Of a DNA stretch of 64,000 nucleotides, positions 15,556 to 64,000 are shown one piece after another. The stretch lies in NCBI GenBank assembly GCA_027449605.1, contig DAIDLH010000079.1:1-64000 (forward strand), given 5' to 3'. Position 1 is the first letter of the stretch, and every line of letters starts with the position of its first letter. The position numbers were made by a program, and so were the translations under genes. The notes beneath the pieces were generated by a model that was given only the letters and a program-made list of their open reading frames with translations, searched no databases and was not told the DNA's origin. Source of the stretch: Candidatus Muproteobacteria bacterium. GTDB lineage: Bacteria > Pseudomonadota > Gammaproteobacteria > Acidiferrobacterales > Sulfurifustaceae.

Positions 15556-17241
15556 ATGTCCGCACGTCGTCATTTTCCGGCCATGCCCCATTTGCCGCGC
15601 CGGCGGTTTCTCCAGGGTCTGGCCGCGGGCGGGATCCTGCTGGGATGGTCGCCATGGTCCAGGACGGCCTGGGCGCGGGAAGCATCCGCGACCGCCACCG
15701 GAACGGCCGCGGTGCTCAGCGGCACCGAGTTCGATCTCACGATCGCGGAAACGCCAGTCAATTTCACCGGCATGCCGCGCCTGGCCACCACCATCAACGG
15801 CTCGATCCCGGGGCCGACGCTGCGCTGGCGCGAGGGCGATACGGTGACGCTGCGGGTCACTAACCGGCTTCCCGTGGATTCTTCCATCCACTGGCACGGC
15901 ATTCTCCTGCCGTATCAGATGGACGGCGTGCCGGGCATCAGTTATCCGGGTATCGCGCCGGGTGAAACCTTCGTTTATCGCTTCAAGGTTCAGCAGACCG
16001 GCACTTACTGGTACCACTCTCATTCCGGTTTCCAGGAGCAGACCGGCATGTACGGCGCGATCGTCATCGAACCGCGCAGCGGCGATTCGATCCGCGCCGA
16101 CCGCGAGTACGTGGTGCAGTTGTCCGACTGGACCGACGAAAATCCGATGGCGGTGATGGCCAAGCTCAAGAGGCAAAGCGGCTATTACAATTTCAACCAA
16201 CCCACCGCGGTTCAATTCCTTCGCGACGCATCCCGCGACGGACTCTCGGCCGCCGTCAACAAGCGCAAGATGTGGAACCAGATGCGCATGAACCCGACCG
16301 ATCTGGCCGACGTTTCCGCTCACACCTACACCTATCTCATGAACGGCGTCACCCCGGCCGGCAACTGGACCGGGCTGTTCCGTTCCGGCGAGAAGCTGCG
16401 GCTGCGTTTCATCAACGGCTCGGCCATGACGTTTTTCGACGTGCGCATCCCGGGGCTCAAGCTGACCGTGGTCCAGGCCGACGGCCAGAACGTCGAGCCG
16501 ATCAGCGTGGACGAGATACGCATCGGCGTGGCCGAGACCTATGACGTGATCGTCACACCGAAGGACGATGCCTACACGATTTTCGCCCAGTCCATGGATC
16601 GCACCGGCTTCGCCCGCGGCACGCTGGCGACGCGCGCCGGCGTGACAGCCGCGGTTCCGGCGCCGGACAAACCCGAGCCGCTCTCCATGGGCGACATGAT
16701 GGGGGACATGATGGGCGGCAAGCGCGCACATCATGCGCGCACCGAGTACGGTCCGAGCACGGACATGCGCGTGGACACGCCGCGCACCAACCTGGACGAC
16801 CCCGGCGTCGGCCTGCGCGACAACGGACGGCGCGTATTGACCTACGCCGATCTGCGCACGATCGGCGGACCGCTCGATCGCCGCGGCGCGCAACGCGAGA
16901 TCGAGCTGCATCTCACCGGCAACATGGAGCGCTACACCTGGTCGCTCGACGGGGTCGAGTTCGGCCGGTCCACGCCGGTGCATTTCCGCCGCAACGAGCG
17001 GCTGCGCGTGATCTTCGTCAACGACACGATGATGACCCATCCGATGCACATGCACGGCATGTGGCAGGAGCTGGAAAACCCGGATGGGAAGTTTCAGGCG
17101 CGCAAGCACACCATCAACGTGCAGCCGGCGCAGCGCGTGACTTTCCTCGTCACCGCGGATGCCCTGGGCCGTTGGGCCTGGCATTGTCATCTTCTGTACC
17201 ACATGGACATGGGCATGTTCCGCGAAGTGGTGGTGGCGTGA
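15556..17241 (+). CDS. copA: Copper resistance multicopper oxidase
   Basis: Tat-like RRRFLQGLAAGGILLGW; IHWHGILLPYQMDGVPG; TYWYHSHSGFQ; MTHPMHMHGMW; WHCHLLYHMDMGM. Confidence 0.95.
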   Translation: MSARRHFPAMPHLPRRRFLQGLAAGGILLGWSPWSRTAWAREASATATGTAAVLSGTEFDLTIAETPVNFTGMPRLATTINGSIPGPTLRWREGDTVTLRVTNRLPVDSSIHWHGILLPYQMDGVPGISYPGIAPGETFVYRFKVQQTGTYWYHSHSGFQEQTGMYGAIVIEPRSGDSIRADREYVVQLSDWTDENPMAVMAKLKRQSGYYNFNQPTAVQFLRDASRDGLSAAVNKRKMWNQMRMNPTDLADVSAHTYTYLMNGVTPAGNWTGLFRSGEKLRLRFINGSAMTFFDVRIPGLKLTVVQADGQNVEPISVDEIRIGVAETYDVIVTPKDDAYTIFAQSMDRTGFARGTLATRAGVTAAVPAPDKPEPLSMGDMMGDMMGGKRAHHARTEYGPSTDMRVDTPRTNLDDPGVGLRDNGRRVLTYADLRTIGGPLDRRGAQREIELHLTGNMERYTWSLDGVEFGRSTPVHFRRNERLRVIFVNDTMMTHPMHMHGMWQELENPDGKFQARKHTINVQPAQRVTFLVTADALGRWAWHCHLLYHMDMGMFREVVVA

Positions 17242-17296: not shown

Positions 17297-18151
17297 ATGA
17301 CGAACAGACAAATGTGCGCAATCGCCCTGGCGGCGATGGCCATCGGCGGGTCGCCGGTTTGGGCGCAGGAGTCGGCGCCGCAGGCCGGCGAAGTGGAAAC
17401 GATGCCGGCCATGGACCACGGTTCCATGCAGGGCGGCTCGCCCCCGCCCGACGCCCGCGATCCGCACGCCTATTCCGGCGGTTACGATTTCGGGCCGATC
17501 CCGCGACCACGCATGATGGACGAGCATCGTCTCGGCTCGCTCCTCGTGGATCGACTCGAAAGGGCGCGCACGCGCGACAACTCGTCCACGGAGTACGATC
17601 TGCAGGCCTGGTACGGCCGGACTTACGACCGCGCGGTGCTCAAGGCCGAGGGCGAAGGCGACGGCGGCAAGCCTCAGGATGCGCGCACCGAGTTGCTCTG
17701 GGGGCATGCGGTCGCCACCTACTGGGACACGCAACTGGGCATGCGCTACGACTCCGGCGCGGGACCGGATCGCCGCTGGCTCGCCTTCGGCATTCAGGGA
17801 CTGGCGCCCTACTGGTTCGAGGCGCAGGCCACGGCCTATGTCGGCGAGAGCGGACGCAGCGCGCTGCGGCTGGAAGCGGAATACGAGCTGCTGCTCACGC
17901 AGAAACTGATCCTGCAGCCGCGCCTCGAGGCGAACGTCTACGGCAAGCGCGACGCCGCGCGCGAACGCGGTTCCGGCCTGTCCGATCTGGCCGCGGGCGT
18001 GCGCTTGCGCTACGAAATCCGGCGCGAGTTCGCGCCCTACATCGGCATCGAGCGCGCCGGCAAGTTCGGGGCCACGGCGGACTTTGCGCGCGCGACCGGA
18101 GAGAAAACCGGGGAAACGCAGCTCGTCGCGGGTCTGCGTTTCTGGTTTTGA
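17297..18151 (+). CDS. copB: Copper resistance outer membrane protein B
   Basis: MDHGSMQGG; DEHRLGSLLVDRLERAR...GRTYDRAVLKAEGEGD; adjacent to copA. Confidence 0.95.
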   Translation: MTNRQMCAIALAAMAIGGSPVWAQESAPQAGEVETMPAMDHGSMQGGSPPPDARDPHAYSGGYDFGPIPRPRMMDEHRLGSLLVDRLERARTRDNSSTEYDLQAWYGRTYDRAVLKAEGEGDGGKPQDARTELLWGHAVATYWDTQLGMRYDSGAGPDRRWLAFGIQGLAPYWFEAQATAYVGESGRSALRLEAEYELLLTQKLILQPRLEANVYGKRDAARERGSGLSDLAAGVRLRYEIRREFAPYIGIERAGKFGATADFARATGEKTGETQLVAGLRFWF

Positions 18152-18206: not shown

Positions 18207-18698
18207 ATGACACGTACGAGTGCAGGCTTTTTTTGCCGGGCGATGCTGCTGCTGTCGCTGATCGGTCTGCCGTCGGCCGTGCTTGGCGACGCCGGGCATG
18301 ACGCGAAAAAAGAACCGGCGGCGACGCAAGGGATGGATCACGGCGACGCAGCCGCCGCCCACTGGATGGCGCCGGAGGAGGCCGCCAGGCGGCCCAATCC
18401 CGTGGCGGCCGATCGTGAATCGCTCGAGCGCGGCAGTAAATTGTTCAAAACGAATTGCGCCAGTTGCCACGGACCGGGCGGACGCGGCGACGGACCGGCG
18501 GGCGCGGCGCTCGACCCCAAACCGGCCGATCTGACGGCCATGGCCGGGCAGCACCCGGACGGAGATTTCGCCTGGAAAATCGCCAATGGCCGCGGGCCGA
18601 TGCCGGCGTGGAACGGACGGTTGAGTGAAAAAAATCTCTGGGACCTGGTGAATTTCATCCAGAGCCTGGCGCGGCCGCAAGACGGCCCCCGGCATTGA
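18207..18698 (+). CDS. Class I cytochrome c (monoheme)
   Basis: Signal peptide; GSKLFKTNCASCHGPGGRGDGPAG. Confidence 0.88.
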   Translation: MTRTSAGFFCRAMLLLSLIGLPSAVLGDAGHDAKKEPAATQGMDHGDAAAAHWMAPEEAARRPNPVAADRESLERGSKLFKTNCASCHGPGGRGDGPAGAALDPKPADLTAMAGQHPDGDFAWKIANGRGPMPAWNGRLSEKNLWDLVNFIQSLARPQDGPRH

Positions 18699-20062: not shown

Positions 20063-20791
20063 ATGAACCGGAAACTTATCAAACAGTGGATACCGCGTGT
20101 GCTGGTTGTCGCCACGCTCGCGGCGACAGGCGTCGTTATCGCCGCCGAACCGAACGGCTCGATGATGGGCGACAGAGACATGTCGACGTACATGCAACCG
20201 GGCCAGATGGGTTACGGCGGTTATGGCATGGGCCCGGGCGGCATGGGCATGATGGGCGGCGGGATGATGGACATGATGATGGGCGGTGGTCCCGGCGGCG
20301 GCATGGGAATGGGCATGATGGGCATGGGCGGACCCGGCATGGGCATGATGGGCGGAGGCATGATGGGCGGCATGGGAATGGGCCCCGGCGGCGGCATGGG
20401 TCCGGTGTGGATGCTGGATCTCACCGACGAGCAGCGCGGCAAGATCGAGAAGATCTACGACGACGTGCGCCGCAAGAACTGGGACACCTACGGCAAGATC
20501 ATGGACGAACAATCCAGACTCCGCGACCTGTACGCGGGTGAAACCGTCGATGCGAAAAAGGCCGGCGCCGTCTACGGCAACATCGTCAAGTTGCAGCAGC
20601 AGGCGTTCGAAACCGGCGTCGAGGCGCACAACCGCGTGCAGGCCGTGCTCACCAAGGAGCAGAAGGAGCAGCTCAAACAGTGGTTCCACGGCGGCATGGG
20701 CGGACGCGGCATGATGGGCCCCGGCGGTCGCGGCCCCGGCAATATGCCGCGCGGCGGCATGGGCATGGGTCCCGGCATGATGAATCGCTGA
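20063..20791 (+). CDS. Met/Gly-rich periplasmic protein, Spy/CpxP-like (metal binding)
   Basis: MGMMGGGMMDMMMGGGPGGGMG repeats; LTDEQRGKIEKIYDDVRRKNW Spy-like helix region. Confidence 0.75.
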   Translation: MNRKLIKQWIPRVLVVATLAATGVVIAAEPNGSMMGDRDMSTYMQPGQMGYGGYGMGPGGMGMMGGGMMDMMMGGGPGGGMGMGMMGMGGPGMGMMGGGMMGGMGMGPGGGMGPVWMLDLTDEQRGKIEKIYDDVRRKNWDTYGKIMDEQSRLRDLYAGETVDAKKAGAVYGNIVKLQQQAFETGVEAHNRVQAVLTKEQKEQLKQWFHGGMGGRGMMGPGGRGPGNMPRGGMGMGPGMMNR

Positions 20792-22743: not shown

Positions 22744-23040
22744 ATGGAAAAGCTCAATCCATGGGTCATGGGCGCGGCGCTTACCATCACCTTCGTCGCG
22801 GTCTACGCGCTTTGTGCCGCGGCGTTCGCGATCGCGCCGACCGCGACGATCGATTTTTTCAACGCCTGGTTTCATGGCCTGAACCTGGCCGGACTGCAAA
22901 CCGGCGCCAAGCCGTTCACGGTCGGCGTGTTTCTTTACGGGACGGTGGGCATCGCCGCGGTGGCATTCGTCTGCGGCTTGGTATTCGCGGTCAGCTACAA
23001 CCTGATTGCCATGCCGAAGCTGACCGGAGAACGGGAGTGA
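22744..23040 (+). CDS. DUF5676-like membrane protein
   Basis: 98 aa, two TM segments; MEKLNPWVMGAALTITFVAVYALCAAAF.. Confidence 0.7.
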   Translation: MEKLNPWVMGAALTITFVAVYALCAAAFAIAPTATIDFFNAWFHGLNLAGLQTGAKPFTVGVFLYGTVGIAAVAFVCGLVFAVSYNLIAMPKLTGERE

Positions 23041-23102: not shown

Positions 23103-23807
23103 TCAGCCGACCGCGACGGCGACCCGCCGCCAGGTGAAATGCTCGTACACGCCGGACCAATACAGGCCGAAGGCGACGGCCCAGGCGAGCTCTTCGAGCG
23201 GCATGCCGAAAAGCATGACGCCGGAGAGTGCGGCGAGGTTCCACACCCGCTCGATATAGCCGGGCGCGGACCATTCGAGCCCGAGGAGAAAGATGACGTA
23301 GTAGGCGAGAAACAACAGTCCGCCGACCCAGGTCTTGGTCTTGAGGTCGGGGCGGCAGAGCGCCGTGGCGAGCGCGCCGATGAACATCGCGACGATACCG
23401 GGATAAATCGGATTCCAGGGAAAGAGGTAAAGGATGGGAAAGGCGATAAAGGGCGAGGCAAGGGCCTTGTAATGATGCCGATGCAACGGCTGGTGTTTCT
23501 CGTGCGCGGCCATGGGACGCGAGCCACCACCGGTAAGCGTGGTGTAGAGCACGGCGGCCATGCCGCCGATGCCGAAAGTGAAGATCAGGCTTTCGATATC
23601 GAACCCGGTGCGCTGTGCGAGATCGAACAGGCTCGGCGGATTCCAGTACGCCGGCACGAACAGCGGCTCCGTAAGTCCGAACGGCGCGGTGAACAGACCG
23701 GACCAGAGCATGGTCTGGCGTTGCCGGGGGAATGCGAGATAGAGCGCGGCCCACGGCGCAAGAAAGGCGGATGCCCACGTGAGCCACACGTATTGGTCAC
23801 TGATCAT
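23103..23807 (-). CDS. Lycopene cyclase domain-containing membrane protein
   Basis: Multiple TM; GMPLEELAWAVAFGLYWSGVYEH matches the (P/x)LEE motif of heterodimeric lycopene cyclase domains. Confidence 0.65.
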   Translation of the reverse strand: MISDQYVWLTWASAFLAPWAALYLAFPRQRQTMLWSGLFTAPFGLTEPLFVPAYWNPPSLFDLAQRTGFDIESLIFTFGIGGMAAVLYTTLTGGGSRPMAAHEKHQPLHRHHYKALASPFIAFPILYLFPWNPIYPGIVAMFIGALATALCRPDLKTKTWVGGLLFLAYYVIFLLGLEWSAPGYIERVWNLAALSGVMLFGMPLEELAWAVAFGLYWSGVYEHFTWRRVAVAVG

Positions 23808-24141: not shown

Positions 24142-26574
24142 ATGATGGCAACTGATCCAGTGTGTGGCATGTCCGTGGATGAAAAATCGGCCGCCGGAAA
24201 ACATGAGCATGAGGGAACGGTCTACTATTTCTGTTCCGCCGACTGCCTCGGCAAGTTTAAGGCCGATCCCGCTGCGTACGTGCAGATGGAGGCCAAGGTC
24301 ATCCCCATGAAAATGGCGGTGGGCCAGAGCCACGCCGCACAGGGACGCGCCAGTGCCGCTCAGAATAAGGGGTTGATCTTCGGGTCCAGCATGTCGGGAG
24401 AGGCCGCGGGCCACGCGCATGTCCATGCCGCGCCCGCGCCGCAGGCCAAGCCTGCCAAGGATATGGCCAAGGACCCGATCTGCGGCATGGTGGTGGAGAA
24501 GGCCAAGGCGCTCAAGACCGAGCGCGCCGGGCGCGCGTATTACTTCTGCAGCGCCGGTTGCCAGCGCACTTTCGAGTCACCGGAGCAGGAACTCAAGTCC
24601 ATGAAGACGCGCGTGACCATCGCGCTCACCGGCGTGCTGGCGCTCGCGATCCTGCGCGCCGGGGCCTTCCTGTTCCTCGCCACCGGCGCGACGATCGTCA
24701 CTTGGGCGCCGATCCCGCAGCTCCCCTGGTTCACCTGGGGTATGTGGCTGTTCCTGCTGGTCACGCCGGTGCAGTTCATCGGCGGCTGGAGCTTCTACAA
24801 GGGCTCGTGGACGGCGATCAAGACACGCTCGATCAACATGGACTTCCTGATCGCGCTCGGCACCACCGTCGCCTATGTTTACAGCGTCGCGGTGCTGTTC
24901 TTCCCCGAGGTGCTGCCGGTGAAGGTCGAGGAGCGCGATGTGTACTTCGAGGTCTCGGCGGTGATCATCGCCTTCGTGCTGCTGGGAAAATACATGGAGG
25001 AACTGATCAAGAAACGCTCGTCGGCGGCGGTGCGCAAGCTGCTGGACTTGAAGCCGGCCACGGCCAATGTCATCCGCGAGGGTCAGGAGATGGAGGTACC
25101 GGCCGAGACTGTCATGGTCGGTGACATCTGCGTCATCCGGCCGGGCCAGAAGATCCCGACCGACGGCGAGGTCATCGAGGGCCGCTCGTCGGTGGACGAA
25201 TCCATGCTGACCGGCGAGTCCATGCCGGTGGACAAGGCACCGGGCACGCCAGTGATCGGCGGAACCCTGAACCGCACGGGGCTGTTGCATTGCAAGGCTA
25301 CGCGCGTCGGGGCCGAAACGGCACTGGCGCAGATCATCAAGCTGGTGGAAGAGGCGCAGGCCAGCACCGCGCAGATCCAGCGCATCGCCGATCAGGTCAA
25401 CGCCAAGTTCGTCCCGGCGGTCGTATTGGTTGCATTCGTGGCGTTCTTCGGCTGGTGGCTCGCCGGCAATTTCCCGCAGGCGTTGCTCGCCTTCATTGCC
25501 GTGCTCATCATCTCCTGCCCGTGCGCGTTGGGCGTGGCCACGCCGGCGGCGCTCATGGTGGGTGTGGGCAAGGGTGCCACGGCCGGGATTCTGATCCGTG
25601 GCGGCGAGGTGCTGGAGCGCGCGCAGAAACTCACCACCATTGTGTTCGACAAGACCGGCACGCTCACGCGCGGCGAACCGAACGTGACCGACATGGTGTC
25701 CTTTGGCGGCGCGGCCGAAACCGAGGTATTGCGACTCGCCGCGGCGATCGAGGCGGGTTCCGAGCATCCGCTTGGCGAGGCGATCGTGCGCGCTGCGCAA
25801 CACCGTAACCTCGCATTACCCAAGGTGGCGGGTTTCGAGGCGATTCCCGGTCACGGCATCCAGGGCAACGTGGACGGCCATAAGGTGCTGCTCGGCAACC
25901 GGCGCCTGTTCGCGCGCGAGGGCATCAAGACGGATGCCGCCGAGGCGGCGATGACGCGCATGGAGGGCGAGGGCAAGACCGCCATGCTGGTCGGTGTCGA
26001 CGGTGCGCTCGCCGGCATCGTGGCGGTGGCCGACACCCTGAAACCCGAGGCCAAGGAGGCGGTCGGCGCGCTCGTCCGCGAGAAGGTCGAGGTCATCATG
26101 CTCACCGGCGACAACCAGCGCACCGCGCAGGCGATCGCCCGCGAGCTCGGCATCGAGAAGGTAATCGCCGAGGTGTTGCCGGGTGACAAGGCCAGGGTCG
26201 TGCAGGACCTGCAGAAGCAGGGCAAGTCGGTGGCCATGGTGGGCGACGGGGTGAACGACGCGCCGGCGCTGGCCGTGGCCGACATCGGCATCGCCATCGG
26301 CTCCGGCTCCGACGTCGCCAAGGAGACCGGCGGCATCATCCTCATCAAGAACGACGTGCGCGATGTGGTGCTCGCGATACGTCTGTCGCGCGCGACCATG
26401 CGCAAGATCAAACAGAACCTGTTCTGGGCGTTCATCTACAACAGCATCGGCATCCCGGTCGCGGCGCTGGGTTTCCTGAACCCGATCATCGCCGCCGCGG
26501 CGATGGCGTTGTCGTCGCTGTCGGTGATCGTTAATTCGGCGCTGCTCAAGCGTCAGCGTCTGGGTGCCGCATGA
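24142..26574 (+). CDS. P1B-type (Cu+/Ag+-like) ATPase with two N-terminal YHS domains
   Basis: [25 protein letters not shown] and [44 protein letters not shown]. Confidence 0.93.
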
Positions 26575-26807: not shown

Positions 26808-27034
26808 ATCACGAGCATCCGCATCGGCCCGAACCCTTCTGGCGCTCGCGCACGGGACTCGCGCTGCTCGGGTTCCTGGCGATCGCCGCGTTCTTTCTGT
26901 TGAGCGAGCACCGCGCGCATCTGCTCGGCGCGCTGCCATTTCTGCTCCTGGCGCTCTGCCCGCTGCTGCATTTCTTCGGCCACGGCGGGCATGGCGGCGA
27001 CGGCCGCGCCGCTGGCGATGGGGACAAATCGTGA
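26804..27034 (+). CDS. DUF2933-like small membrane protein, His/Gly-rich tail
   Basis: SEHRAHLLGALPFLLLALCPLLHFFGHGGHGGDG; GTG start overlapping the previous stop. Confidence 0.75.
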   Translation: MNHEHPHRPEPFWRSRTGLALLGFLAIAAFFLLSEHRAHLLGALPFLLLALCPLLHFFGHGGHGGDGRAAGDGDKS

Positions 27035-27107: not shown

Positions 27108-28472
27108 ATGAAAAATTGGCGGCGGGGGTGTTTCGGTGTCGTGTCCGTCGTGATAACGGCCGGCGCGCTATGGGCCGCGTCGAGTTCGCCCGCCCAGGCG
27201 GTGCCGAGCTTCAGCCGCCAGAGCGGCCAGACCTGCGCCTCGTGTCACACCGTGTTTCCGGAGCTCACGCCCTTCGGGCGGCAGTTCAAGCTGCGGGGCT
27301 ACACGCTGGGGAACGGGCTGGCCGACAAAGAGTTTCCCTATTCCCTGCCGCTGTCGGCTTCGCTGATCGTCTCGCGCACCTCGCTGGGGGACACGAAGGC
27401 GTCCGATCCGGCGGAGGACTTCCCGCGTATCAATCAGACCATCGCGCAGACGGCGGCGGTGTATTACGGCGGCAAGATCACCGACAAGTCCGGGGCGTTC
27501 GTGCAGTACAACTACGACGGCATCGAGCGCCAGTGGGCGGTCGAAATGGCCGACATCCGCTACGCCGACAGCACCATGATCGGCGACCGCGAGCTGCTGT
27601 GGGGCCTGACGCTGAACAACACCCCCACGACCCAGGACGTGTGGAACACCGTGCAGATGTGGGCCTTTCCGCATCTCGCGGATGCCGGCGTCATGCCGCC
27701 GGTCAATACCCTGCTCGACATGTTCCTGGCGCAGCAGGTCAAGGGGCTGGGGTTTTACGGGTACTGGAACAACGCGCTCTACGCCGAGTTCAGCCTCTAC
27801 CGCACGAACAAGTCGGGCTTGTTGCGCCCGCTGAGCGCCGGGGTTCCCACAACCACCGTGGTCGACAACTATGCCCCCTATTGGCACATCATGTACAACC
27901 GCGAGGCGGGAGCGCACAACTTCGCCGCCGGAATCCACGGCATGACGGCGGACATCTTCCCCGACGCCAACGACCTGAGCAGCGCCACCGACCGCTTCCG
28001 GGACCTGGCCCTGGATGCGCAATACCAGTACATCGCGGATGCCCACGTCTTCTCGACCCAGGCCAGCTGGATCCGCGAAAAGCGCGACTGGAACGCCAGC
28101 TTCCCGATGATGCTCGCTTCCAATCCTTCCGACACGGTCGACGTCTTCAAGATGAATTTTCACTACTGGTACCAGCGCCGGCTGGGCGGCGGCATCGGTT
28201 ACTTCTCCACCACGGGCGACAGCGACATGCTCGCCTATAGCGGCATGGCCATGACCGAAAGCGCCATGACCAATGCGAGCGGCCGCCCGGACACCAAGGG
28301 CTGGACCGTGGAGCTCGACTGGCTGCCGCTGACGAACGTGCAGAACCTCAAGCTCGGGGCGCGCTACACGGCCTACACCAAGTTCAACGGCGCGGGCACC
28401 GACTACAACGGCTTCGGCCGGAACGCATCCGATAACAACGCGACCTTTCTGTACGGCTGGCTCCTGTTCTGA
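27108..28472 (+). CDS. Monoheme cytochrome fused to predicted outer-membrane barrel, Cyc2-like
   Basis: Signal peptide then VPSFSRQSGQTCASCHTVFPELTPFGRQFKLRGYTLG; remaining ~390 aa with alternating aromatic barrel-like strands ending in F. Confidence 0.65.
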   Translation: MKNWRRGCFGVVSVVITAGALWAASSSPAQAVPSFSRQSGQTCASCHTVFPELTPFGRQFKLRGYTLGNGLADKEFPYSLPLSASLIVSRTSLGDTKASDPAEDFPRINQTIAQTAAVYYGGKITDKSGAFVQYNYDGIERQWAVEMADIRYADSTMIGDRELLWGLTLNNTPTTQDVWNTVQMWAFPHLADAGVMPPVNTLLDMFLAQQVKGLGFYGYWNNALYAEFSLYRTNKSGLLRPLSAGVPTTTVVDNYAPYWHIMYNREAGAHNFAAGIHGMTADIFPDANDLSSATDRFRDLALDAQYQYIADAHVFSTQASWIREKRDWNASFPMMLASNPSDTVDVFKMNFHYWYQRRLGGGIGYFSTTGDSDMLAYSGMAMTESAMTNASGRPDTKGWTVELDWLPLTNVQNLKLGARYTAYTKFNGAGTDYNGFGRNASDNNATFLYGWLLF

Positions 28473-28500
28473 GCCGGCGTTTGTTTCTATGGAGACGGAC

Positions 28501-28716
28501 ATGAATACACCGCCGACCGCTCATCACCGGAGGCCCGACAGGACCAAGTGGGTCTTCCTCGGGTTTCTCGCGATCGCCGGTTTTTTCCTGTTCACCGAGC
28601 ACCGGGCTCACGCCCTGGGCATCCTGCCGTTTGCGCTGTTGCTCCTCTGTCCGCTGCTGCACTTTTTCGGCCACGGCGGGCACGACCATGGCGCGGAAAA
28701 AGGAGACAAGCCATGA
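28501..28716 (+). CDS. DUF2933-like small membrane protein, His-rich tail
   Basis: TEHRAHALGILPFALLLLCPLLHFFGHGGHDHGAEKGDKP. Confidence 0.75.
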   Translation: MNTPPTAHHRRPDRTKWVFLGFLAIAGFFLFTEHRAHALGILPFALLLLCPLLHFFGHGGHDHGAEKGDKP

Positions 28717-29369
28717 ATCCCGTCACCTCCGCGCCCGCCTATGGCCTGTGGTCGCTCGTGGTCATCAACTCGGCGGTGTTCATCATCTTTCTCTACAGCT
28801 TCGCCAAGCCGCAGACCCAGCGCGACTGGCGCTCCTTCGGCGCCATCTCGGCGTTCCTGGTGGCGCTGTTCACCGAGATGTACGGCTACCCGCTCACCAT
28901 CTATCTGTTGTCGGGCTGGCTGCAGAGCCGCTACCCGAGCGTCAACTGGTTCTCCCACGACGCCGGGCATCTGCTCGAGATGCTGTTCGGCTGGAAGGCC
29001 AACCCGCATTTCGGGCCGTTTCATCTGCTGAGTTTCGGGTTCATCGGCGGCGGGTTCATCCTGCTGTCGAACGCCTGGCGCGTGCTGTACGCGGCGCAGA
29101 AGAATCACACGCTGGCGACGAACGGCCCGTATGCCTACATCCGCCATCCGCAGTACGTCGGCTTCGTGCTCATCATGCTGGGCTTTCTGGTGCAGTGGCC
29201 GACGATCCTGACGCTCGCCATGTTTCCGGTGCTGGTGTTCATGTACGTGCATCTTGCCCGGCGCGAAGAGCGCGAGGTGGAAGCGGAGTTCGGCGCGGAG
29301 TATCGGCGTTACGCGGCGCGCACGCCGGCGTTCATTCCGCGCTTCGGCATGACGCGCGCGCTGCCGTGA
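28713..29369 (+). CDS. Isoprenylcysteine methyltransferase (ICMT/PEMT)-like membrane protein
   Basis: NGPYAYIRHPQYVGFVLIMLGFLVQWPT...RREEREVEAEFGAEYRRYAARTPAFIPR. Confidence 0.85.
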   Translation: MNPVTSAPAYGLWSLVVINSAVFIIFLYSFAKPQTQRDWRSFGAISAFLVALFTEMYGYPLTIYLLSGWLQSRYPSVNWFSHDAGHLLEMLFGWKANPHFGPFHLLSFGFIGGGFILLSNAWRVLYAAQKNHTLATNGPYAYIRHPQYVGFVLIMLGFLVQWPTILTLAMFPVLVFMYVHLARREEREVEAEFGAEYRRYAARTPAFIPRFGMTRALP

Positions 29370-30878: not shown

Positions 30879-31298
30879 ATGACACGCGAATCCGAGATCG
30901 GGCTGCTCATCCTGCGCCTGGGCCTCGGCAGCTTCCTGTTGCTCTTCGGCATCGACAAGCTCGTTGCGCCGCACGTCGCGGCCGCGATCTTCGTGGACTT
31001 CTACGGCTTTGGGACCGTTTCCGCGACGCTCGTCTACAGCGCCGGGTTGCTGGAAATTGCGCTCAGCCTGGCGATCCTGGCCGGCATTTGGAAAACGCTG
31101 AGCTACGGCCTGGGGCTGGCCCTGCACGCGGTCTCCACGCTCGTGACGTACCGCGAGCTGCTCTCGCCTTTCGGTGAGAATCACATGTACCTCGCCGCCG
31201 TTCCCGTGCTCGCGGGGTTCGTGACGCTGTTTCTGCTGCGGCGCCAGGATGTCTTGTGGAGTCTCGGCGCCGGGCGCGCTGCGGGCGGGGGCGCGTAA
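30879..31298 (+). CDS. DoxX-like membrane protein
   Basis: LLILRLGLGSFLLLFGIDKLVAP..; paralogue at 49792-50202. Confidence 0.8.
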   Translation: MTRESEIGLLILRLGLGSFLLLFGIDKLVAPHVAAAIFVDFYGFGTVSATLVYSAGLLEIALSLAILAGIWKTLSYGLGLALHAVSTLVTYRELLSPFGENHMYLAAVPVLAGFVTLFLLRRQDVLWSLGAGRAAGGGA

Positions 31299-32656
31299 TG
31301 GACATCAGCTTCCTCGGCGCCACCGGCACGGTCACCGGCTCCAAGTACCTGGTGAGCGCCGGCGGCCGGAAGATACTCGTGGACTGCGGCCTGTTCCAGG
31401 GCTACAAGCAACTGCGGCTGCGCAACCGGGCGCCGCTGCCCGTCAACCCGCGCGAGATCGACGCGGTGATTCTGACTCACGCGCATCTCGATCACAGCGG
31501 CTACCTGCCGCTGCTGATCAGGAACGGTTATGCCGGCAAGGTGTATTGCACTCAGGCGACACGCGACTTGTGCGCCATCCTGCTGCCGGACAGCGGGCAC
31601 CTGCAGGAGGAAGAGGCGGAGTACGCCAACCGTCACAAGTTCTCCAAGCATGCGCCGGCGTTGCCGCTGTACACACGCGAAGACGCGGAGCATTCGCTCT
31701 CGCTCTTTGCGCCGGTCGATTTCGCGCGCGATACCGATCTCGGCGGCGGTCTCGCGCTGCATCTGCTGCCCGCCGGGCATATATTGGGCTCGTCCTTCGT
31801 GCGGCTGCGTCACGCTGGCCAGACACTGTTGTTCACCGGCGACTTGGGCCGGCCGAACGATCTTATTATGGTGGCGCCGACGGTTGTCAGCCGCGCGGAT
31901 TATCTGGTCGTCGAGTCCACCTACGGCGACCGCCGCCACGATTCTGCCGATCCGCAGCAGCGGCTCGCCGAGATAATCAACCGCACGGCGAAGCGCGGCG
32001 GCGCGGTGATCGTGCCGGCGTTCGCCGTGGGGCGCGCGCAGACGCTGATGTACCTCATCCATCTGCTCAAGGAATCGAATGCAATTCCCGACATTCCGGT
32101 GTTTCTCAACAGCCCCATGGCGGTGGATGCCACGCGCCTCTACCACAATCATCGCGGCGAGCATCGCCTCACGCCCGAGCAATGCGACGCCATGTGCGCC
32201 GCCGCGAAGGTCGTCAACAGCGTCGAGGAATCCAAGGCGCTCAACACGCGCCAGGGCCCGATGATCGTCATTTCGGCGAGCGGCATGGCCACCGGTGGGC
32301 GCGTGGTGCATCACCTCAAGGCGTTTGCGCCGGAGGCGCGCAACACGATCCTGTTCGTGGGTTTCCAGGCCGGCGGTTCGCGCGGCGCGGCCATGCTGAA
32401 CGGCGCCGACAGCATCAAGATCCACGGCGAGTATGTTCCCGTGCGGGCGGAAGTGGCGAGTATCGACAATTTCTCGGCACACGCGGACTACGCCGAGATC
32501 CTCGGTTGGCTCAAACACTTCGAATCGCCGCCGCGCCAGACCTTCGTCACGCACGGCGAGCCCAAGGCGGCCGACGCGCTGCGCCACCGCATCGAGGAAA
32601 GCCTCGGATGGCGCACTGCTGTGCCGGATTATCTCGAAACAGTGCGGTTGGAATAG
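31298..32656 (+). CDS. MBL-fold beta-CASP RNase/exonuclease-like protein (YSH1/CPSF type)
   Basis: MDISFLGATGTVTGSKYLV; ILTHAHLDHSGYLP; FTGDLGRP; GYLVVESTYGDR-type motifs; FSAHADYAEIL. Confidence 0.92.
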   Translation: MDISFLGATGTVTGSKYLVSAGGRKILVDCGLFQGYKQLRLRNRAPLPVNPREIDAVILTHAHLDHSGYLPLLIRNGYAGKVYCTQATRDLCAILLPDSGHLQEEEAEYANRHKFSKHAPALPLYTREDAEHSLSLFAPVDFARDTDLGGGLALHLLPAGHILGSSFVRLRHAGQTLLFTGDLGRPNDLIMVAPTVVSRADYLVVESTYGDRRHDSADPQQRLAEIINRTAKRGGAVIVPAFAVGRAQTLMYLIHLLKESNAIPDIPVFLNSPMAVDATRLYHNHRGEHRLTPEQCDAMCAAAKVVNSVEESKALNTRQGPMIVISASGMATGGRVVHHLKAFAPEARNTILFVGFQAGGSRGAAMLNGADSIKIHGEYVPVRAEVASIDNFSAHADYAEILGWLKHFESPPRQTFVTHGEPKAADALRHRIEESLGWRTAVPDYLETVRLE

Positions 32657-32669
32657 CGATCACGGCGCC

Positions 32670-32774
32670 ATGATCCGCGAGACGAACAAGCAGGCGCACA
32701 GTCACGACGGATTCATCGTGCGCATGCCGGATAGCGTGCCGCCGGCGCTTGCGGGCGGCAGGCGCGCGCCGTGA
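32670..32774 (+). CDS. Possible 34-aa peptide
   Basis: [37 protein letters not shown] overlapping the ackA start; weak. Confidence 0.3.
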   Translation: MIRETNKQAHSHDGFIVRMPDSVPPALAGGRRAP

Positions 32775-33931
32775 ACGTGCTCACGGTCAACGCCGGCAGT
32801 TCCTCGCTGCGCCTGGCGGTGTTTGCCGCGGCGGGCGAGGCGTTATCGCTGCTGGCAATCGGTCATTTTCCCGACGCGCGGAATAATTTCGCGAAAATCC
32901 TGCGTACTTTTCTCGAGGATCACGGCATAGAGGAGGTGGCGGTGGTCGCGCACCGGATCGTTCACGGTGGAGTGCGCCTTGTTGCATCCTGCCTGTTGGA
33001 CAGAGAGACAGAAGCCGAGATCGAGCGCCTCGTCTCGCTGGCGCCGCTGCACAATCCGCCGGCGCTCGCGGGAATACGCGCCTGCCGCGAAGTGTTCGGC
33101 ATGCGGACGGAGCAGGTAGCGGTGTTCGATACGGCGTTCTACGCCGATCTGCCGGCGGCCGCGCGCGCCTACGCGCTCCCGAGCGAGTTCGTGCACAAGC
33201 ATGGGCTGCGCCGCTACGGTTTTCACGGCATCGCGCATCGCGCGCTGTGGCGGCGCTGGCGGGCGCTGCGGCCGGAGGTGCCCGAGGGCGGACGCGCGAT
33301 CTCGCTGCAACTCGGCGCCGGCTGCTCCATGACCGCGATCGAACGCGGCGCGCCGCGTGACACCTCGATGGGTTTTTCGCCGCTGGAGGGCCTGATGATG
33401 GCCACCCGCGGCGGCGATATCGATCCGGGCGCGATCACCTATCTGCAGCGGCGCGAGGGGTTCAGTCCGGAGGTGACCGAGCGGTTGCTCTACCACGACT
33501 GCGGCCTGCAAGGCGTGGCCGGCGAGAGCGACATGCGCCGCTTGCTCGCGCGTGACGACGCCGAGGCGCGGCTGGCGGTGGAAATGTACTGCCACCGCGC
33601 GCGCAAATATCTCGGCGCCTATCTCGCGCTGCTCGGCGGCGCCGACGCGTTTCTCTTCGGCGGCGGCGTGGGCGAGAACGCGCCGTTCGTGCGCGAGAAG
33701 ATTCTCGCCAACATGGAGTGGGCCGGCATCGCGCTCGATGCGGGGGCGAATCGCGCCGCCGTGGGAATCGAGGCGCGCGTCAGCCGGCCGGAGAGCCGGA
33801 CGGAGATCTGGGTTATCCCGGTGGACGAAGCCGCGATTCTGGCCGAAGAGGCCCTGACGGTGGCGGCGGTACGAAGCGCCCCGGGTCAAGGAGGTAATCA
33901 TGAACGAGGCAGCACTGAAATCGAAGCTTGA
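32771..33931 (+). CDS. ackA: Acetate kinase family protein
   Basis: [57 protein letters not shown]. Confidence 0.94.
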
Positions 33932-36305
33932 GCAAGGCCCGCTGGATGCCGGGGAACTTCGCCGCCTGGACGCCTGGTGGCGCGCGGCGAATTATCTCTC
34001 GGTCGGCCAGATCTATCTGCTCGACAACCCGCTGCTCCGGGAGCCGCTCGCGCTGGCGCATGTGAAGCCGCGGCTGCTCGGCCACTGGGGCACGACGCCC
34101 GGACTCAATTTCCTCTACGTGCACCTGAACCGCATTATTAGTAAGTATGGACTCAATGTGCTCTACGTCGCCGGCCCCGGTCACGGCGGGCCGGCGCTGG
34201 TCGCCAACACCTGGCTCGAGGGCAGTTACAGCGAGCTCTATCCGAACGTGCCGCAGGACGCCGAGGGCATGAAACGGCTGTTCCGGCAATTTTCGTTCCC
34301 CGGCGGGATAGGCAGCCACGTCACCGCCGAGACGCCGGGCTCGATTCACGAGGGCGGCGAGCTCGGTTACGCGCTCGCGCACGCCTACGGCGCGGCCTTC
34401 GACAATCCGGACCTGATTGTCGCCTGCGTGGTGGGCGACGGCGAAGCCGAAACCGGGCCGCTGGCCGCCGCCTGGCACTCGAACAAGTTCCTGAACCCCG
34501 TCACCGACGGCGCGGTGCTGCCGATCCTGCACCTGAACGGCTACAAGATCGCCAATCCCACGGTGCTCGCGCGCATCCCGCGCACCGAGCTTGAAAGCCT
34601 GTTCATCGGCTACGGTTACAAGCCGTATTTCGTCGAGGGCGACGATCCCGAGGCCATGCACCGGTTGATGGCGGCGACGCTCGATGCGGTGATCGCCGAG
34701 ATCAAAGCAATCCAACAGCGAGCGCGCGCGAACGATGCTTCGGTGCGGGTGCGCTGGCCGATGATTATTTTCAAGACGCCCAAGGGCTGGACCGGACCGA
34801 AGGAGGTGGACGGCCGGCAGACCGAGGGCAGCTGGCGTTCGCACCAGGTGCCGTTCGGCGAGTTGACGAAACCGGAACATTTGAAGCTGCTCGAACAGTG
34901 GATGAAGAGCTACCGGCCCGAGGAGCTGTTCGACGCGCGCGGTGCGCTCCAGCCCGAGCTCGCGGCGCTCGCGCCCGGGGGAACGCGGCGCATGGGCGCG
35001 AATCCGCACGCCAACGGCGGCCTGCTGCTCCGGGAGCTGCGGCTGCCCGATTTCCGCGACTACGCCGTGGAGGTTCCGCAACCGGGCGGCACGGTTGCCG
35101 AAGCCACGCGCGTGATGGGCACGTTTCTGCGCGACGTGATGAAGCTCAACCGCGAGACGCGCAACTTCCGCGTCGTCGGTCCGGACGAAACCGCCTCCAA
35201 CCGCCTGGGCGCGTTGTTCGAGGTCACCGACCGCGCATGGCAGGCGGAGCGTCTGCCCGGGGACGATCATCTCGCGCCCGACGGACGCGTGATGGAAATA
35301 CTTTCCGAACACACCTGCCAGGGCTGGCTCGAGGGCTATCTGCTCACCGGACGGCACGGACTGTTCTCGTGCTACGAGGCGTTCATCCATATCGTGGACT
35401 CGATGTTCAACCAGCACGCCAAGTGGCTGAAGGTGAGCAAGGAGATCCCGTGGCGCCGGCCGATCGCCTCGCTCAATTATCTGCTCACCTCGCACGTCTG
35501 GCGCCAGGACCACAACGGCTTCTCGCACCAGGACCCGGGCTTCATCGACCACGTGGTGAACAAGAAGGCCCGCATCATCCGCGTGTATCTGCCGCCCGAC
35601 GCCAACACGCTGCTGTGCGTCACCGACGCCTGCCTGCGCTCGCGTCACCTTGTCAACGTCATCGTCGCCGGGAAGAACGTGGAGCCGCAGTGGCTCGACA
35701 TGGACGCCGCCATCAAGCACTGCGCGGCCGGCATCGGCATCTTCGAATGGGCCAGCAGCGACGCCGAAGGCGAGCCGGACGTGGTCATGGCGGCAGCCGG
35801 CGACGTGCCGACGATCGAGGTGCTCGCGGCGATCGCGCTGTTGCGCGAGCATCTGCCAGATCTGCGGATACGGATGGTGAACGTCGTGGACCTGATGACG
35901 CTCCAGCCGCGGGAAGAACACCCGCACGGGCTCGCGGACCGCGAGTTCGACGGGCTGTTCACCACCGACAAGCCGATCATCTTCGCCTACCACGGTTACC
36001 CGTGGCTCATTCACCGGCTTACGTATCGCCGCGCCAATCACAAGAACCTGCATGTGCGCGGCTACAAGGAAGAAGGCACGACCACGACGCCGTTCGACAT
36101 GGCGGTGCGCAACGACCTCGACCGCTTTCATCTCGTGGCCGACGTGATCGACCGTGTACCCAAGCTCGGTTACAAGGCCGCTCACTTGAAACAGCATGTG
36201 CGCGACAAGCTCATCGAGCACCGCCAGTACATCGAGCGCCACGGCCAGGACATGCCGGAGATACTCGAGTGGCAGTGGCCCGCGGCGCCGGGGAGGCCCG
36301 CGTGA
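33900..36305 (+). CDS. Phosphoketolase (xylulose-5-P/fructose-6-P)
   Basis: [71 protein letters not shown]. Confidence 0.96.
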
Positions 36306-46188: not shown

Positions 46189-48597
46189 ATGAAAACCAGC
46201 GTTATAGACATCAGCGGATTGTTTTCCGTGTTGAGCGCCCGTGGCGTGGAGAAACAGCTCGCGAAGCTCCCCGGCGTGCACAAGGCCGAGGTGAACTATG
46301 TCGCTGGGAGCGCGACCGTCGAATATGATGAAACCGTCGTCGATCTCAAGACCATCAAGGCCCGGGTGCATGAGTGCGGTTATCACTGCGCCGGCGAGCT
46401 CCAGCCGAAGCATGTATGTGTTCCGGAAGATCCGCCGGCCACGGCTGTCACCATTGCGCCTGCGGCGCACGTCGGTCACGTGCACGAAGGCCACGTCGTC
46501 CATGCCAGGCACGAGATGCCCGCCGAGCACGCCGCGCCGGCGGGCAAGGCGGACGCGATGGCGCACGAGATGGGCCACGGCGCGGGCATGGACATGCATG
46601 CCATGGCGCGCGACATGCGCAACCGCTTCTGGGTCGCGCTCGCATTCACCGTGCCGGTCTTCGTCTACTCCCCGATGGGCGGCATGTTCACGCCACCGGT
46701 GCCGCCGTTCGGGCTTCCGCTCAACACTTGGCTGTTCCTGTTGGCGAGCGCCGCGGTGCTCTGGCCGGTCTGGCCGTTCGCGGTCGCCGCGTGGCGCGCG
46801 CTCAGGAACGGCGTGCTCAACATGGCAGTGCTGGTGATGCTCTCGGTCGGCACCGGCTACGTCTTCAGTGTCGGCGCGACCTTCTTCTTCGCCGGCGTGC
46901 AGTTCTACGAGGCGGTGGCGGTGCTGCTCGTCTTCATCCTGCTCGGCCACTGGCTCGAGATGCGCGCGCGGGCCGGCGCCTCCGAGGCGATCCGCGTGCT
47001 GCTCGATCTCGCCCCGCCGATGGCCACCGTGATCCGCGCCGGGCGTGAAGTCGAGCTGCCAACTGCCGAGGTGCAGGCGGGCGATGTCGTCGTGATCCGC
47101 CCCGGCAACAAGATTCCGGTGGACGGCGAGGTGCTGGAGGGCGAGTCGCAGGTGGACGAGTCCATGCTCACCGGCGAGTCCATGCCGGTCGGCAAAAAGC
47201 CCGGCGACACGGTGATCGGCGCCACTATTAATAAGAGTGGCAGCTTCCGCTACCGTGCCACCAAGGTCGGCGCCGACACCGCGCTCGCCCAGATCGTGAA
47301 ACTGGTGCAGGAGGCGCAGAACTCCAAGGCCCCGGCGCAGTTGCTCGCCGACCGCGCCTCGCAGTGGCTGGTGCTGATGGCCGTCGTGATCGGCTTGCTT
47401 ACCTTCGGCGCGTGGTTCTGGTGGCTCGGCCAGCCGCTGCTGTTCGCGCTCACACTTACTATTACGGTGTTTGTGATCGCCTGCCCGGACGCGCTCGGGC
47501 TCGCCACGCCCATGGCCGTGATGGTCGGCACCGGCCTCGGCGCCATGAACGGGATCCTGTTCAAGAACGCCGCGGCATTGGAGGACGCGACCCGGCTCGA
47601 CGTCGTCATCTTCGACAAGACCGGCACGCTCACTATCGGCCAGCCCGAGGTCGTCGAGGTCGTGGCGGCGGAGGGCGCGAGCGCGGATGCGGCGCTGGCG
47701 CTTGCCGCCGCGGTCGAGCAGGGCTCGGATCATCCGCTCGCGCAGGCGATCTTGCGCCGGTCGCAGGGGCTTGCGATCGAGAAGCCCACGGGATTTATGG
47801 TGATCGAGGGCAAGGGCGCCCGCGCCGACGTCGCGGGTCGCACGGTGTTCCTCGGCAACCGACGGCTCATGGATGAGCAGCGGATCGACCTGGCCGGTCT
47901 GGCGGAGAAGGCGACGGAACTTCAAGGTGGTGGGCGGACAGTCGTGCACGTCGCGCACGGCGGCAAGCTCGTGGGGCTCATCGCCATCGCCGATGCCGTT
48001 CGCCCGACCTCGGCCGCGACCGTCAAGGCGCTGCAGGCGCGCGGCGTGCAGGTGGCGATGCTCACCGGCGACAACCGCGGCACCGCCGAGCGCATCGCCG
48101 GCACGCTCGGCATCGACATCGTGCTGGCCGACGTGCTCCCCGGGCAGAAGGCCGACAAGGTCAAGGAATTGCAGGCCGGCGGCAAGAAGGTCGGCATGGT
48201 CGGCGACGGCATCAACGACGCCCCGGCGCTGACGCAGGCGGACGTGGGTTTCGCGATCGGCGCCGGCACCGACGTCGCCATGGAGAGCGCCGACGTGGTG
48301 CTGATGAAGAGCGACCCGTTCGACGTGGTCGGCGCGATCACGCTGTCGCGCGCCACGCTCACCAAGATGCACCAGAACCTGTGGTGGGCGGTGGCCTACA
48401 ACGTGATCGCCTTCCCGGTGGCGGCCGGCGTGTTTTACCCGTTCGTCATTAGTCCCGAGGTCGCGGCACTCGCCATGTCCGGCAGCTCGGCGCTGGTGGC
48501 GGTGAACGCCTTATTGCTCAAGCGCACGCGGCTCGAAGGCATCCGTGCGCACGGACCAGCGGCGCATGCCGGCGTGAGCGAGGTCGTCACCGCATGA
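46189..48597 (+). CDS. P1B-type heavy metal ATPase with [11 protein letters not shown] (CPD) ion-site motif and His-rich N-terminal extension
   Basis: [27 protein letters not shown]-like domain lacking Cxx[21 protein letters not shown] linker. Confidence 0.93.
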
Positions 48598-60376: not shown

Positions 60377-62626
60377 ATGACCGCGGCGATCCTGGAACAG
60401 GCCAGCACGCACCGGCTGTCCATCTCCGGCATGAGCTGCGCCGGCTGCGTGGCCACGGTCGAGAACGCGCTGAAGAACGTGCCGGGCGTGATCGAGTCGG
60501 CGGTCAACTTCGCCGAGCACACCGCGACCGTCCGCGGCAACGTCGAAGCCGCCAGGCTCATCGAAGCGGTCACCGCATCCGGTTACGGCGCCGCCGAATT
60601 GCGCGGCCTCGAGGACGAATCCGAAAAAGAAGCCGCCGAGCTCGCTCATTATCGATCGCTGCTGCGCAAGTTCATCGTCGCCGGCGCCGTCGGCCTGCCG
60701 CTGATGCTCGCCGAACCGCTCGGCCTCATGCCCATGCTCGATACGCCGTCGGGCCGGGTCTTCTGGCTCGCGGTCGGCGCGGCGACGCTGTTCGTGCTGG
60801 TCTATGCCGGCGGGCATTTCTTCCGCGGCGCGTGGAAATCGTTCCGCGCCCACAACGCCAATATGGACACGCTGATCGCGCTCGGCACCGGCGCGGCGTG
60901 GCTGTATTCGATGCTGGTGCTGGTCTTCCCCGGCATCGTGCCGAGCCTCGCGCGCCACGCCTATTTCGAAGCGGCGGCGATCATCATCTCGCTGATCAAC
61001 CTCGGCCAGGCGCTGGAAATGCGCGCTCGCGGCAAGACCTCGGAGGCGATCCGGCGTCTCATCGGCCTGCAACCCAAAACCGCGCGCGTGATCCGCGACG
61101 GCAGGGAGACGGATATTCCCATCTCCGAAGTCGGTCTGGACGAAACCATTCGTGTCCGTCCCGGAGAGAAAATTCCCGTCGACGGCGTGATCGTCGAGGG
61201 ACATTCCTCGGTGGATGAGTCCATGCTCACCGGCGAGCCGATGCCGGTGGAAAAAAAGACCGGCGATGAAGTGGTCGGCGCCACGCTCAACAAGTCCGGC
61301 ACGTTTCTGTTTCAGGCCAAGCGCATCGGCGCCGACACCGCGCTGGCGCGCATCATCGAAATGGTGCGCCGCGCGCAGAGTTCCAAGCCCGCGATCGGCC
61401 GGCTCGCTGACCGGATCTCGGCCGTGTTCGTGCCGTCGGTTTTGATTATTGCGGTGATCACTTTCCTCGCCTGGCACAACTTCGGCCCCGAGCCGAAGCT
61501 GTCCTATTCCCTGGTCGCCACCATGACCGTTCTCATCATCGCCTGTCCGTGTGCGCTCGGACTGGCGACGCCGATTTCGATCATGGTCGGCGTCGGCAAG
61601 GCGGCGGAGTACGGCATACTCATCCGCAACGGCGAGGCGCTGCAGCAGGCGGGCAAGCTCACCACCATCGTGCTCGACAAGACCGGTACCGTCACCGAAG
61701 GCCGGCCGAACGTGACCGCGCTGCTGCCCGCGCCGGGATGGGACGAGCAAAGACTGCTGGCCATGGCGGCGAGCATCGAGACAGGATCGGAGCATCCGCT
61801 GGCCGAGGCGATCGTGGCGGCGGCGAAAGTCAAAGGCATCGGGCTTTCCGCCGCCAGCGGTTTCGAGGCCATCGCGGGACACGGCGTTACGGCGACGGTC
61901 GACGGCCGAAAAGTCCTGTTCGGCAACGCGCGCCTGATGGCGCAGCATCATGTCGATCTCGGCGATTTTCCGGCGCGCGCCGGGGAACTGTCGGCGCGGG
62001 CGCAGACGCCGATGTATCTCGCCGTCGACGGCGCCGTGGCCGGGATCGTGGCCGTGGCCGATCCGGTCAAGCCGGACTCGAAAGCCGCGATTGCGCGGCT
62101 GCACGCGACCGGTCTCAAGGTGGTGATGATCACCGGCGACAACCGCGCCACCGCCGAGGCCGTGGCGCGCGAGGTCGGCGTGGACGAGGCGATGGCCGAG
62201 GTGCTGCCGGGCGACAAGGCGGCGAAAGTGTCCGAACTCCAGGCGCGCGGCGAGATCGTGGGCATGGTCGGCGACGGCATCAACGACGCGCCGGCGCTGG
62301 CCCAGGCCGACGTGGGTTACGCCATCGGCACCGGCACCGACGTGGCGATCGAGTCTGCCGACGTGACGCTGATGCGCGGTTCGCTGCACGGCGTCGCCGA
62401 CGCCATCGCCATCTCGCGCGTCACGGTGCGCAACATCAAGCAGAATCTTTTCGGCGCGTTCATTTACAACGTGCTCGGCATTCCCGTCGCCGCCGGCGCG
62501 CTGTATCCGTTCACCGGTCTGCTGCTCAATCCGATCATCGCCGGCGCGGCGATGGCGATGTCGTCGGTGACGGTGGTGAGCAACGCCAATCGGCTGAGAT
62601 GGTTCGAATCCGGACGGCGCGGCTGA
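60377..62626 (+). CDS. Copper-translocating P1B-1 ATPase with N-terminal HMA domain
   Basis: [62 protein letters not shown]. Confidence 0.95.
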
Positions 62627-62716: not shown

Positions 62717-64000
62717 TTAGCGCGGCGGCAGGGCGGCGATCTGCGGCGTGTAGCCGCCGAAGAACCCGATCGCCACGAGCAGCAACAGCGTCAAGCCGCA
62801 CGCGATCAGGACGATGCCCAGTATCTTGGACCCGAGGGTCATGGGTTGCGATGGGGCGTCCACCAGGTATTTCTCCAACTGTCCGGTTTCAACCAGGCGC
62901 TGGTACTGCGCCGCGTGATCGCGCCGGAACTCTTCCAGCGACTGGACGCCGGTGAACATCACGATGTCCGGGGGCGGCATTTTGTCGGGCCGGAAGTGGT
63001 TGTTGAAGAAGTGCACCGTGAACAGGAACACCGCGGCGAGGAACGCTTCTTCTCCGTGCACCAGCGTGGCCACGTTGAACACCCAGCCCGGGAAGATCGA
63101 CGCGACCACGTGCGGGAACGCCAGCATCATGCCGCTGCCGCCGATGATGGCCATGCCCCAGAACACCGCCCAGTAGTCGAATTTCTCCCAGTAGGTCCAG
63201 CGGTCGAACACCGGCCGCGGGCCTCGGCCTACGAACCACACGAACATGCCCCAGGCGTCCTTGAAGTCCTTCCAATTCGGTATCAGCGAATCCGGCCCGA
63301 ACCAGCGGAAGGTCTTGCGGTGGCGGTAAATGTTGACGGCGACCCCGATCAGATGCAGGAAGAAGATGCCGAGCATGATCGCGGCGCTGGTGCGGTGGAT
63401 GATCCCCGCCACGCGCGGACCGCCGAGCGCGTTGATGACGACCGGGGCCCAGTTAGTATACGAATAGAACACCGCCATGCCGGTCAGGATCAGCGTCATG
63501 ACGCTCAGGGCGAAGACGAGGTGTGCGATGCGCCAGACGAGCCCGAACCGCCGGACCTGCTTCGATTCCCCCGGCGGCAACTCGTCGATGCGAACGTGCG
63601 ACCGCGCCTTGCGATCCTTGCGGTCGCGGTATTCGCGATGCCACCACAGCAGCGAGTGCGCCCAGAAGTAGGCGAACACGAACAGCAGCAGCCAGTTCAT
63701 GAATTTCGAGGCGATCCACATCTGCGGATAACGTTCGAAGTCGTGGGTGTTCGCGTGCGGCCCGAAGGTCACGAATCCCGGCGTCGCCAGCGGCAGCTTC
63801 TTGCCGTCGTGACACTTCTGGCAGGTCTTCAGGCGCTTGTCGGGGTGCACTTTCGATTTCGGATCCTTCACCTTCATGATCCCGTGGCTGTCGTGGCAGT
63901 CGTAGCACTTGGCCGTGTAGGTGTAGCCCAGCTTGGTGACCTGGCCGTGATAGGTATCGCGGTAGGTGACGTAATTCTCCAGATGGCAGCCGCCGCAATT
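62717..64000 (-). CDS. Multiheme c - cytochrome b561-type fusion, N-terminus beyond the window
   Basis: Frame is open to 64000: NCGGCHLENYVTYRDTYHGQ...AKCYDCHDSHGIMKVKDPKSKVHPDKRLKTCQKCH followed by several TM helices with paired His. Confidence 0.85.
   Translation of the reverse strand, partial: NCGGCHLENYVTYRDTYHGQVTKLGYTYTAKCYDCHDSHGIMKVKDPKSKVHPDKRLKTCQKCHDGKKLPLATPGFVTFGPHANTHDFERYPQMWIASKFMNWLLLFVFAYFWAHSLLWWHREYRDRKDRKARSHVRIDELPPGESKQVRRFGLVWRIAHLVFALSVMTLILTGMAVFYSYTNWAPVVINALGGPRVAGIIHRTSAAIMLGIFFLHLIGVAVNIYRHRKTFRWFGPDSLIPNWKDFKDAWGMFVWFVGRGPRPVFDRWTYWEKFDYWAVFWGMAIIGGSGMMLAFPHVVASIFPGWVFNVATLVHGEEAFLAAVFLFTVHFFNNHFRPDKMPPPDIVMFTGVQSLEEFRRDHAAQYQRLVETGQLEKYLVDAPSQPMTLGSKILGIVLIACGLTLLLLVAIGFFGGYTPQIAALPPR

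Follow-up and report, generated by a model that had tools for sequence, protein, structure and literature searches.

Cyc2 serves as a marker gene of microbial iron oxidation. No activity other than Fe(II) oxidation has been demonstrated for characterised Cyc2 proteins, and the function outside the characterised clades is openly uncertain (PMC8406198). The consensus before the haem site is AXPXFAR[Q/K][T/Y], which was required for the tree of that work, and the potential of Cyc2 PV-1 lies near +208 mV (PMC8406198). Taxa of the Rhodanobacter, Burkholderiales, Crenobacter and Acidiphilium type form the network around Acidithiobacillus Cyc2 (PMC10654088). The porin-cytochrome complexes MtrCAB and MtoAB are similar to the protein considered here in that electrons cross the outer membrane through a barrel, but they have 26 strands and separate multihaem cytochromes (PMC8406198). 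On the side of copper, PcoAB has been discussed as a possible porin-oxidase pair in a work that is not about Cyc2 (PMC5566968). In the literature searched, no Cyc2 branch linked to copper, efflux, silver or resistance is described.

We analysed a stretch of DNA of 64,000 nt from Candidatus Muproteobacteria bacterium (hereafter, the window), for which an earlier note, made from the letters alone, had proposed a Cyc2-like gene inside a copper/silver island. The ORF, located at 27108-28472 on the + strand, encodes a Cyc2-like fused monohaem cytochrome-porin of 454 aa, starts with ATG, ends with a C-terminal F (...FLYGWLLF) and has a coding-like codon-position GC profile; its position, signal-peptide-like start, single CXXCH and terminal F were all confirmed. 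Residues 1-31 (27108-27200, +) are signal-peptide-like, since by eye an MKNWRR n-region and a hydrophobic stretch lead to SPAQA followed by VPSF, with the cut predicted after ...SPAQA, and this stretch is followed by AVPSFSRQSGQTCASCHTVFPELTPFGRQFKLRGYTLG. The only CXXCH of the protein is the haem-binding CASCH at residues 43-47 (C43-H47; 27234-27248, +), with AVPSFSRQSG before it and PEL after it, so that a PXL is present four residues past it (CASCHTVFPEL). By sequence, the protein had no match to a curated family or a solved structure in Pfam, NCBIfam, PADLOC and PDB, and for this reason its homology was sought through genome searches. These gave full-length relatives with 30-65% identity in at least 569 stretches of one genome collection and a same-genus copy, 68-69% identical, in the same island, hence the ORF is not a chance one.

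The AlphaFold2 model of the protein, built on 50 homologues, had a mean pLDDT of 87 and a pTM of 0.84. Its 16 strands span residues 82-453, in line with the barrel previously supposed, and it has an N-terminal helical domain, with haem-region helices at residues 35-39, 43-46 and 55-62 and a helix at residues 2-25 followed by a low-confidence linker. The Foldseek matches of the model were 16-strand general porins (OmpF, OmpC and OmpK36, with E about 1e-8), and long and short loops alternate in it in a porin-like pattern. On the basis of the DSSP string and of general knowledge of porins, the 40-residue beta5-beta6 loop would be the positional counterpart of the constriction loop L3. A fused 16-strand barrel in a protein of at least 365 aa is a criterion for Cyc2 (PMC8406198), and the model shows such a barrel within the 454 aa of the window protein.

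The relatives of the protein include Rhodanobacter, Burkholderiales and Crenobacter, and nine plasmid records carry them, Acidiphilium among these. Genomes with a rus operon were located by a rusticyanin search, and as reference rus-operon Cyc2 we considered that of stretch L165. Its order, read from the ORFs, is cyc2-...-coxBACD-ctaA-ctaB-rus, with rusticyanin recognised in the same stretch by NCBIfam, and it is similar to that of the Acidihalobacter rus operon (PMC10654088), with no obvious cyc1 in L165. This Cyc2 matched the window protein along its full length (profile E 1e-119, 31% identity), and in a tree from which A. ferrooxidans Cyc2 is absent the two group together, apart from the Zetaproteobacteria-like cluster 1 and the FARKYG-type sequences. 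The window protein resembles rus-operon Cyc2 ('Cluster 2', Acidithiobacillus/Acidihalobacter type) in the full-length homology, the single N-terminal haem, the 16-strand barrel and a similar length, whereas its gene lies outside a rus/cox operon and within a copper island, its strict motif is incomplete and its Met/His residues are branch-specific. With Cyc2 PV-1 (Cluster 1, neutrophilic Fe oxidisers) it has in common the haem-domain motif and the fused-porin layout, and presumed cluster-1 sequences match it at the N-terminus (E from 1e-8 to 1e-14), but the barrels are too diverged to align. Many Zetaproteobacteria-like Cyc2 match it over the haem domain only and form a deep separate branch in the tree.

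By homology and fold, the window protein belongs to a broadly defined Cyc2 family, and the placement suggested in the earlier note agrees with a tree and a full-length homology that put it in the family containing rus-operon Cyc2. As regards the Cyc2 layout claimed there, the single N-terminal haem motif and the fused barrel stood, while the strict consensus is incomplete: the protein has AVPSFSRQS, matching 5 of the 7 specified positions of AXPXFAR[Q/K][T/Y] (with A->S and T/Y->S), and we therefore classed it as a Cyc2-like variant. The core PXFAR[Q/K][T/Y] fails in 7/10 Met-rich sequences and in 44/118 other homologues, so that screens requiring the motif would lose most of the branch described below.

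Two genes about 9-10 kb upstream strengthen the proposal of a copper island, namely those for a PcoA/CopA-type multicopper oxidase (15556-17241, +; Cu-oxidase, Cu-oxidase_2 and Cu-oxidase_3 domains) and for a PcoB/CopB outer-membrane copper resistance protein (17297-18151, +; PF05275, E=3e-88). Next to them are a periplasmic monohaem cytochrome c, a possible electron partner (18207-18698, +; PF13442/PF00034), an LTXXQ/Spy-like Met-rich metal-resistance protein (20063-20791, +; PF07813, PF13801), a DUF5676 2TM protein (22744-23040, +; PF18926) and a lycopene-cyclase-like membrane protein (23103-23807, -; PF18916), the last being kept in the same-genus island with 84% identity in L163. The closer neighbours agree with those listed previously, as assessed with Pfam and NCBIfam: a copper-type P1B heavy-metal ATPase with two N-terminal YHS domains (24142-26574, +; PF00122, PF04945), DUF2933 proteins on both sides (26855-27034, +, PF11666 E=1.4e-22; 28489-28716, +, PF11666 E=1.1e-21) and an ICMT/PEMT-like membrane methyltransferase (28713-29369, +; PF04140, PF04191). 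The ATPase scored 604.6 bits with the copper-translocating model TIGR01511 of NCBIfam, against a cut-off of 397, and together with the Pco genes this model points to copper as the probable metal of the window. In the same-genus genome G760 the flanking island genes are mostly 79-89% identical and the cytochrome-porin only 68%, the latter being at a different island position, beside the lycopene-cyclase-like gene.

Two more P-type-ATPase-like genes of the window, with N-terminal HMA-like stretches (by eye, and with BLAST similarity to CopA), are at 60377-62626 and 46189-48597, and a partial multihaem cytochrome with at least three CXXCH is at the window edge (62717-64000, -). Phosphoketolase (Xfp) genes repeatedly adjoin Cyc2-like and P1B ATPase genes, in MAGs of Aminicenantes and Deltaproteobacteria (L040:13453-15844; L042:1-1058 and 16204-16422) as in the window (31256-36305), where AckA and an MBL-fold protein accompany them.

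Since islands gather unrelated genes, the protein could simply be a Cyc2 of the ordinary kind, oxidising Fe(II) and lying by chance inside a mobile metal-resistance island, as its homology to rus-operon Cyc2 and the fact that Fe(II) oxidation is the sole activity of characterised Cyc2 (PMC8406198) would also allow. We considered this unlikely, though deserving of some weight: no rusticyanin or cox operon adjoins the window gene, rusticyanin had no scoring match in the window's genome, and against a chance position there are also the recurrence of the metal linkage in differing gene arrangements and the Met/His residues of the barrel, which are specific to the branch and not found in the rest of the family.

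As to the recurrence, the branch that held the window protein in the first tree also comprised L156 (same genus), L038 (Aromatoleum), L039, L041 and L047, and every member had copper or heavy-metal efflux genes nearby (Fisher test of branch against metal linkage, 2.7e-5, for a branch noticed after looking at the data; here and below, the Fisher tests treat the sequences ignoring their relatedness). A later genome search, made only after the copper-branch idea was formed, gave three further close relatives (L194, L195 and L196), all of which joined the branch and all with metal-efflux genes; a fourth relative with comparable identity, L197 (48%), fell outside the branch, without metal genes and without extra Met. 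The final branch consists of eight sequences from diverse proteobacteria, with an SH-aLRT of 99 that is unchanged at 99 when the Met columns are removed. P1B, HME-RND or Pco genes were within 9 kb in 8/8 branch members, compared with 13/92 other homologues (Fisher p 1.1e-6). With one sequence per genus the p value was 2.6e-5, and the contrast was also seen at cut-offs of 2, 3, 5 and 7 kb; the link to metal detoxification proposed in the earlier note is thus statistically supported for the clade.

The arrangement of the neighbours varies. The genes of L194 and L195 come at most 0.2 kb after CusCBA, that of L039 is ahead of a CusCBA set, that of L041 is after CusCBA and DUF411, and the window gene, L156 and L038 are found with CopA, DUF2933 and ICMT, which indicates that it is not one frozen block. 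The Aromatoleum toluolicum copy (L038:9911-11275) has one in-frame stop codon, either because it is a pseudogene or owing to a sequencing error. Genes of the P1B and HME-RND types may also act on metals other than copper, and the neighbour labels do not settle which metal is concerned in every genome. Of the two metals, Cu and Fe, to which the gene had previously been tied, the evidence favours copper (or silver), with iron less favoured.

Met accounts for 2.8-7.0% of the barrel in the six sequences of the first branch vs 1.3% in the family, and is the most shifted of the 20 residues in the branch (z 3.2, the next largest being 1.7 in size). We rejected GC content as the source of this enrichment, as the comparison indicated that it does not explain it. 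Total Met content was also rejected as a marker of the branch: L196, a branch member, breaks the rule, its overall Met being ordinary (1.4%), yet it keeps M147, M196 and M205, and specific positions hold better. Precisely, 11 columns are nearly fixed in the eight sequences of the branch and rare elsewhere, three of them Met and two His (H189 and H352), and M196, M205, M387, H189 and H352 are present in 7-8 of the 8 branch members and in at most 1% of the sequences elsewhere. Among the Met-rich sequences, M147 (codon 27546-27548, +; beta-strand 4) is Met in 10/10 and in 6% of the others, which usually have N; M205 is found in 10/10 and in 0/109 others, which usually have G; M196 in 9/10 and 1% of the others; M380 in 8/10 and 1%; and M387 (codon 28266-28268, +) in 8/10 and 0%. 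At positions 196 and 352 the consensus of the family is T and S, respectively. Codons 196-205 (27693-27722, +) fall in the long beta5-beta6 loop, the putative L3 equivalent, which in the model holds M184, H189, M196 and M205, and the beta13-beta14 loop holds M380 and M387. On strand 4, M147 alternates with D149 and R151, both invariant, and is therefore probably lumen-facing, and the strand and loop positions suggest that the Met/His residues may cluster in space. Met-rich barrels (4.3-7.0%) also occur in four Zetaproteobacteria-like Cyc2 of the FARKYG-type (L120, L123, L125 and L137).

Both the Met/His enrichment and the linkage could be by-products of common ancestry and of copper islands moving laterally, the cytochrome-porin having no functional tie to copper. 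Few independent contrasts are available, and much of the same island is common to the window, L156, L038 and L195; the Met trait and the metal linkage agree in 4/5 contrasts (p 0.125), five being too few for significance. L047, which was inside the branch in the first tree, is together with L198 a separate lineage in the two later trees (a joint clade was not rejected, AU p 0.19), and both have M147, M196 and M205 in common with the branch, L047 lying 0.3 kb from pcoA-pcoB. These two sequences argue against common descent as the whole explanation, to which we attach only a small probability.

The recurrent copper-export neighbours and the extra Met/His residues suggest a Cyc2-type protein adapted to handle copper. 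We put at about even chances the proposal that the branch is a part of the Cyc2 homology family specialised for copper, or for the chemically similar silver, in which the haem takes an electron from Cu(I) in the pore and hands it to a periplasmic cytochrome. For the metal, the redox direction, the electron partner and the cellular role we infer the following scheme. After export, the protein would form a 16-strand barrel in the outer membrane, its single-haem domain lying at the periplasmic mouth. Cu(I) in the pore, whether of external origin or set free by the linked CopA/Cus/Pco export systems, would be held by the branch-specific Met/His residues on strand 4, in the L3-like loop, on strand 12 and in the beta13-14 loop, and the haem would turn it into the less toxic Cu(II). 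The electron would then go to a periplasmic cytochrome c, for example the product of 18207-18698, and on to respiration. A potential like that of Cyc2 PV-1, near +208 mV, would be compatible with the oxidation of aqueous Cu(I). Sites rich in Met, however, favour copper as Cu(I) and can shift its potential upwards, so that Cu(I) oxidation could be disfavoured. More tentatively, and with somewhat less than an even chance in our estimate, the branch may have exchanged Fe(II) for Cu(I) or Ag(I) as its substrate. It would then be a cuprous oxidase of the outer membrane, based on haem, acting together with CopA, Cus and Pco and giving electrons to respiration, and published motif screens would mostly fail to detect it. 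PcoA-PcoB (a periplasmic multicopper oxidase and an outer-membrane protein), present in the same island, would serve the same proposed end, an outer-membrane-coupled oxidation of Cu(I), but with copper centres instead of haem, in separate proteins and without homology to the cytochrome-porin.

Pores rich in Met carry Cu(I) elsewhere, as in CusA-type proteins, and PcoB and CusC are precedents for outer-membrane copper proteins. The haem could accordingly act reductively on surface Cu(II) or Ag(I), or gate a Met-lined copper pore as a metal valve with no net redox catalysis, and the adjacent cytochromes are in fact few, as a CXXCH-bearing neighbour within 3 kb was found in 4/10 Met-rich sequences vs 59/98 others, a count that also weighs against the Cu(I)-oxidising scheme above. 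We considered this reading improbable, since every branch member has retained the CXXCH of the haem site, which a pure channel could do without, and the characterised family members are oxidases.

If the copper-linked branch is real, some cyc2-like matches would not report iron oxidation, and a haem-based route of copper detoxification would exist alongside the multicopper oxidases. Residues M147, H189, M196, M205, H352 and M387 make the copper idea directly testable.

Some further Cyc2-like genes were observed in the comparison. Genome G710 has three Cyc2-like paralogues (L196, L197 and L198) that differ in Met content and in context. L040, L044 and L045 form a second, separate Cyc2-like clade, with a P1B ATPase 0.3-4.5 kb away and with M147 also present. 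The Cyc2-like gene of A. multivorum is split, and two plasmids filed under Acidithiobacillus ferrooxidans YQ-N3 (L034) and Acidiphilium (L036) have a Cyc2-like gene and its neighbours in common, either by transfer or by mis-assignment. The sole relative in the viral collection was a partial Cyc2-like gene, with 31% identity, on a contig of 41.8 kb (L118).
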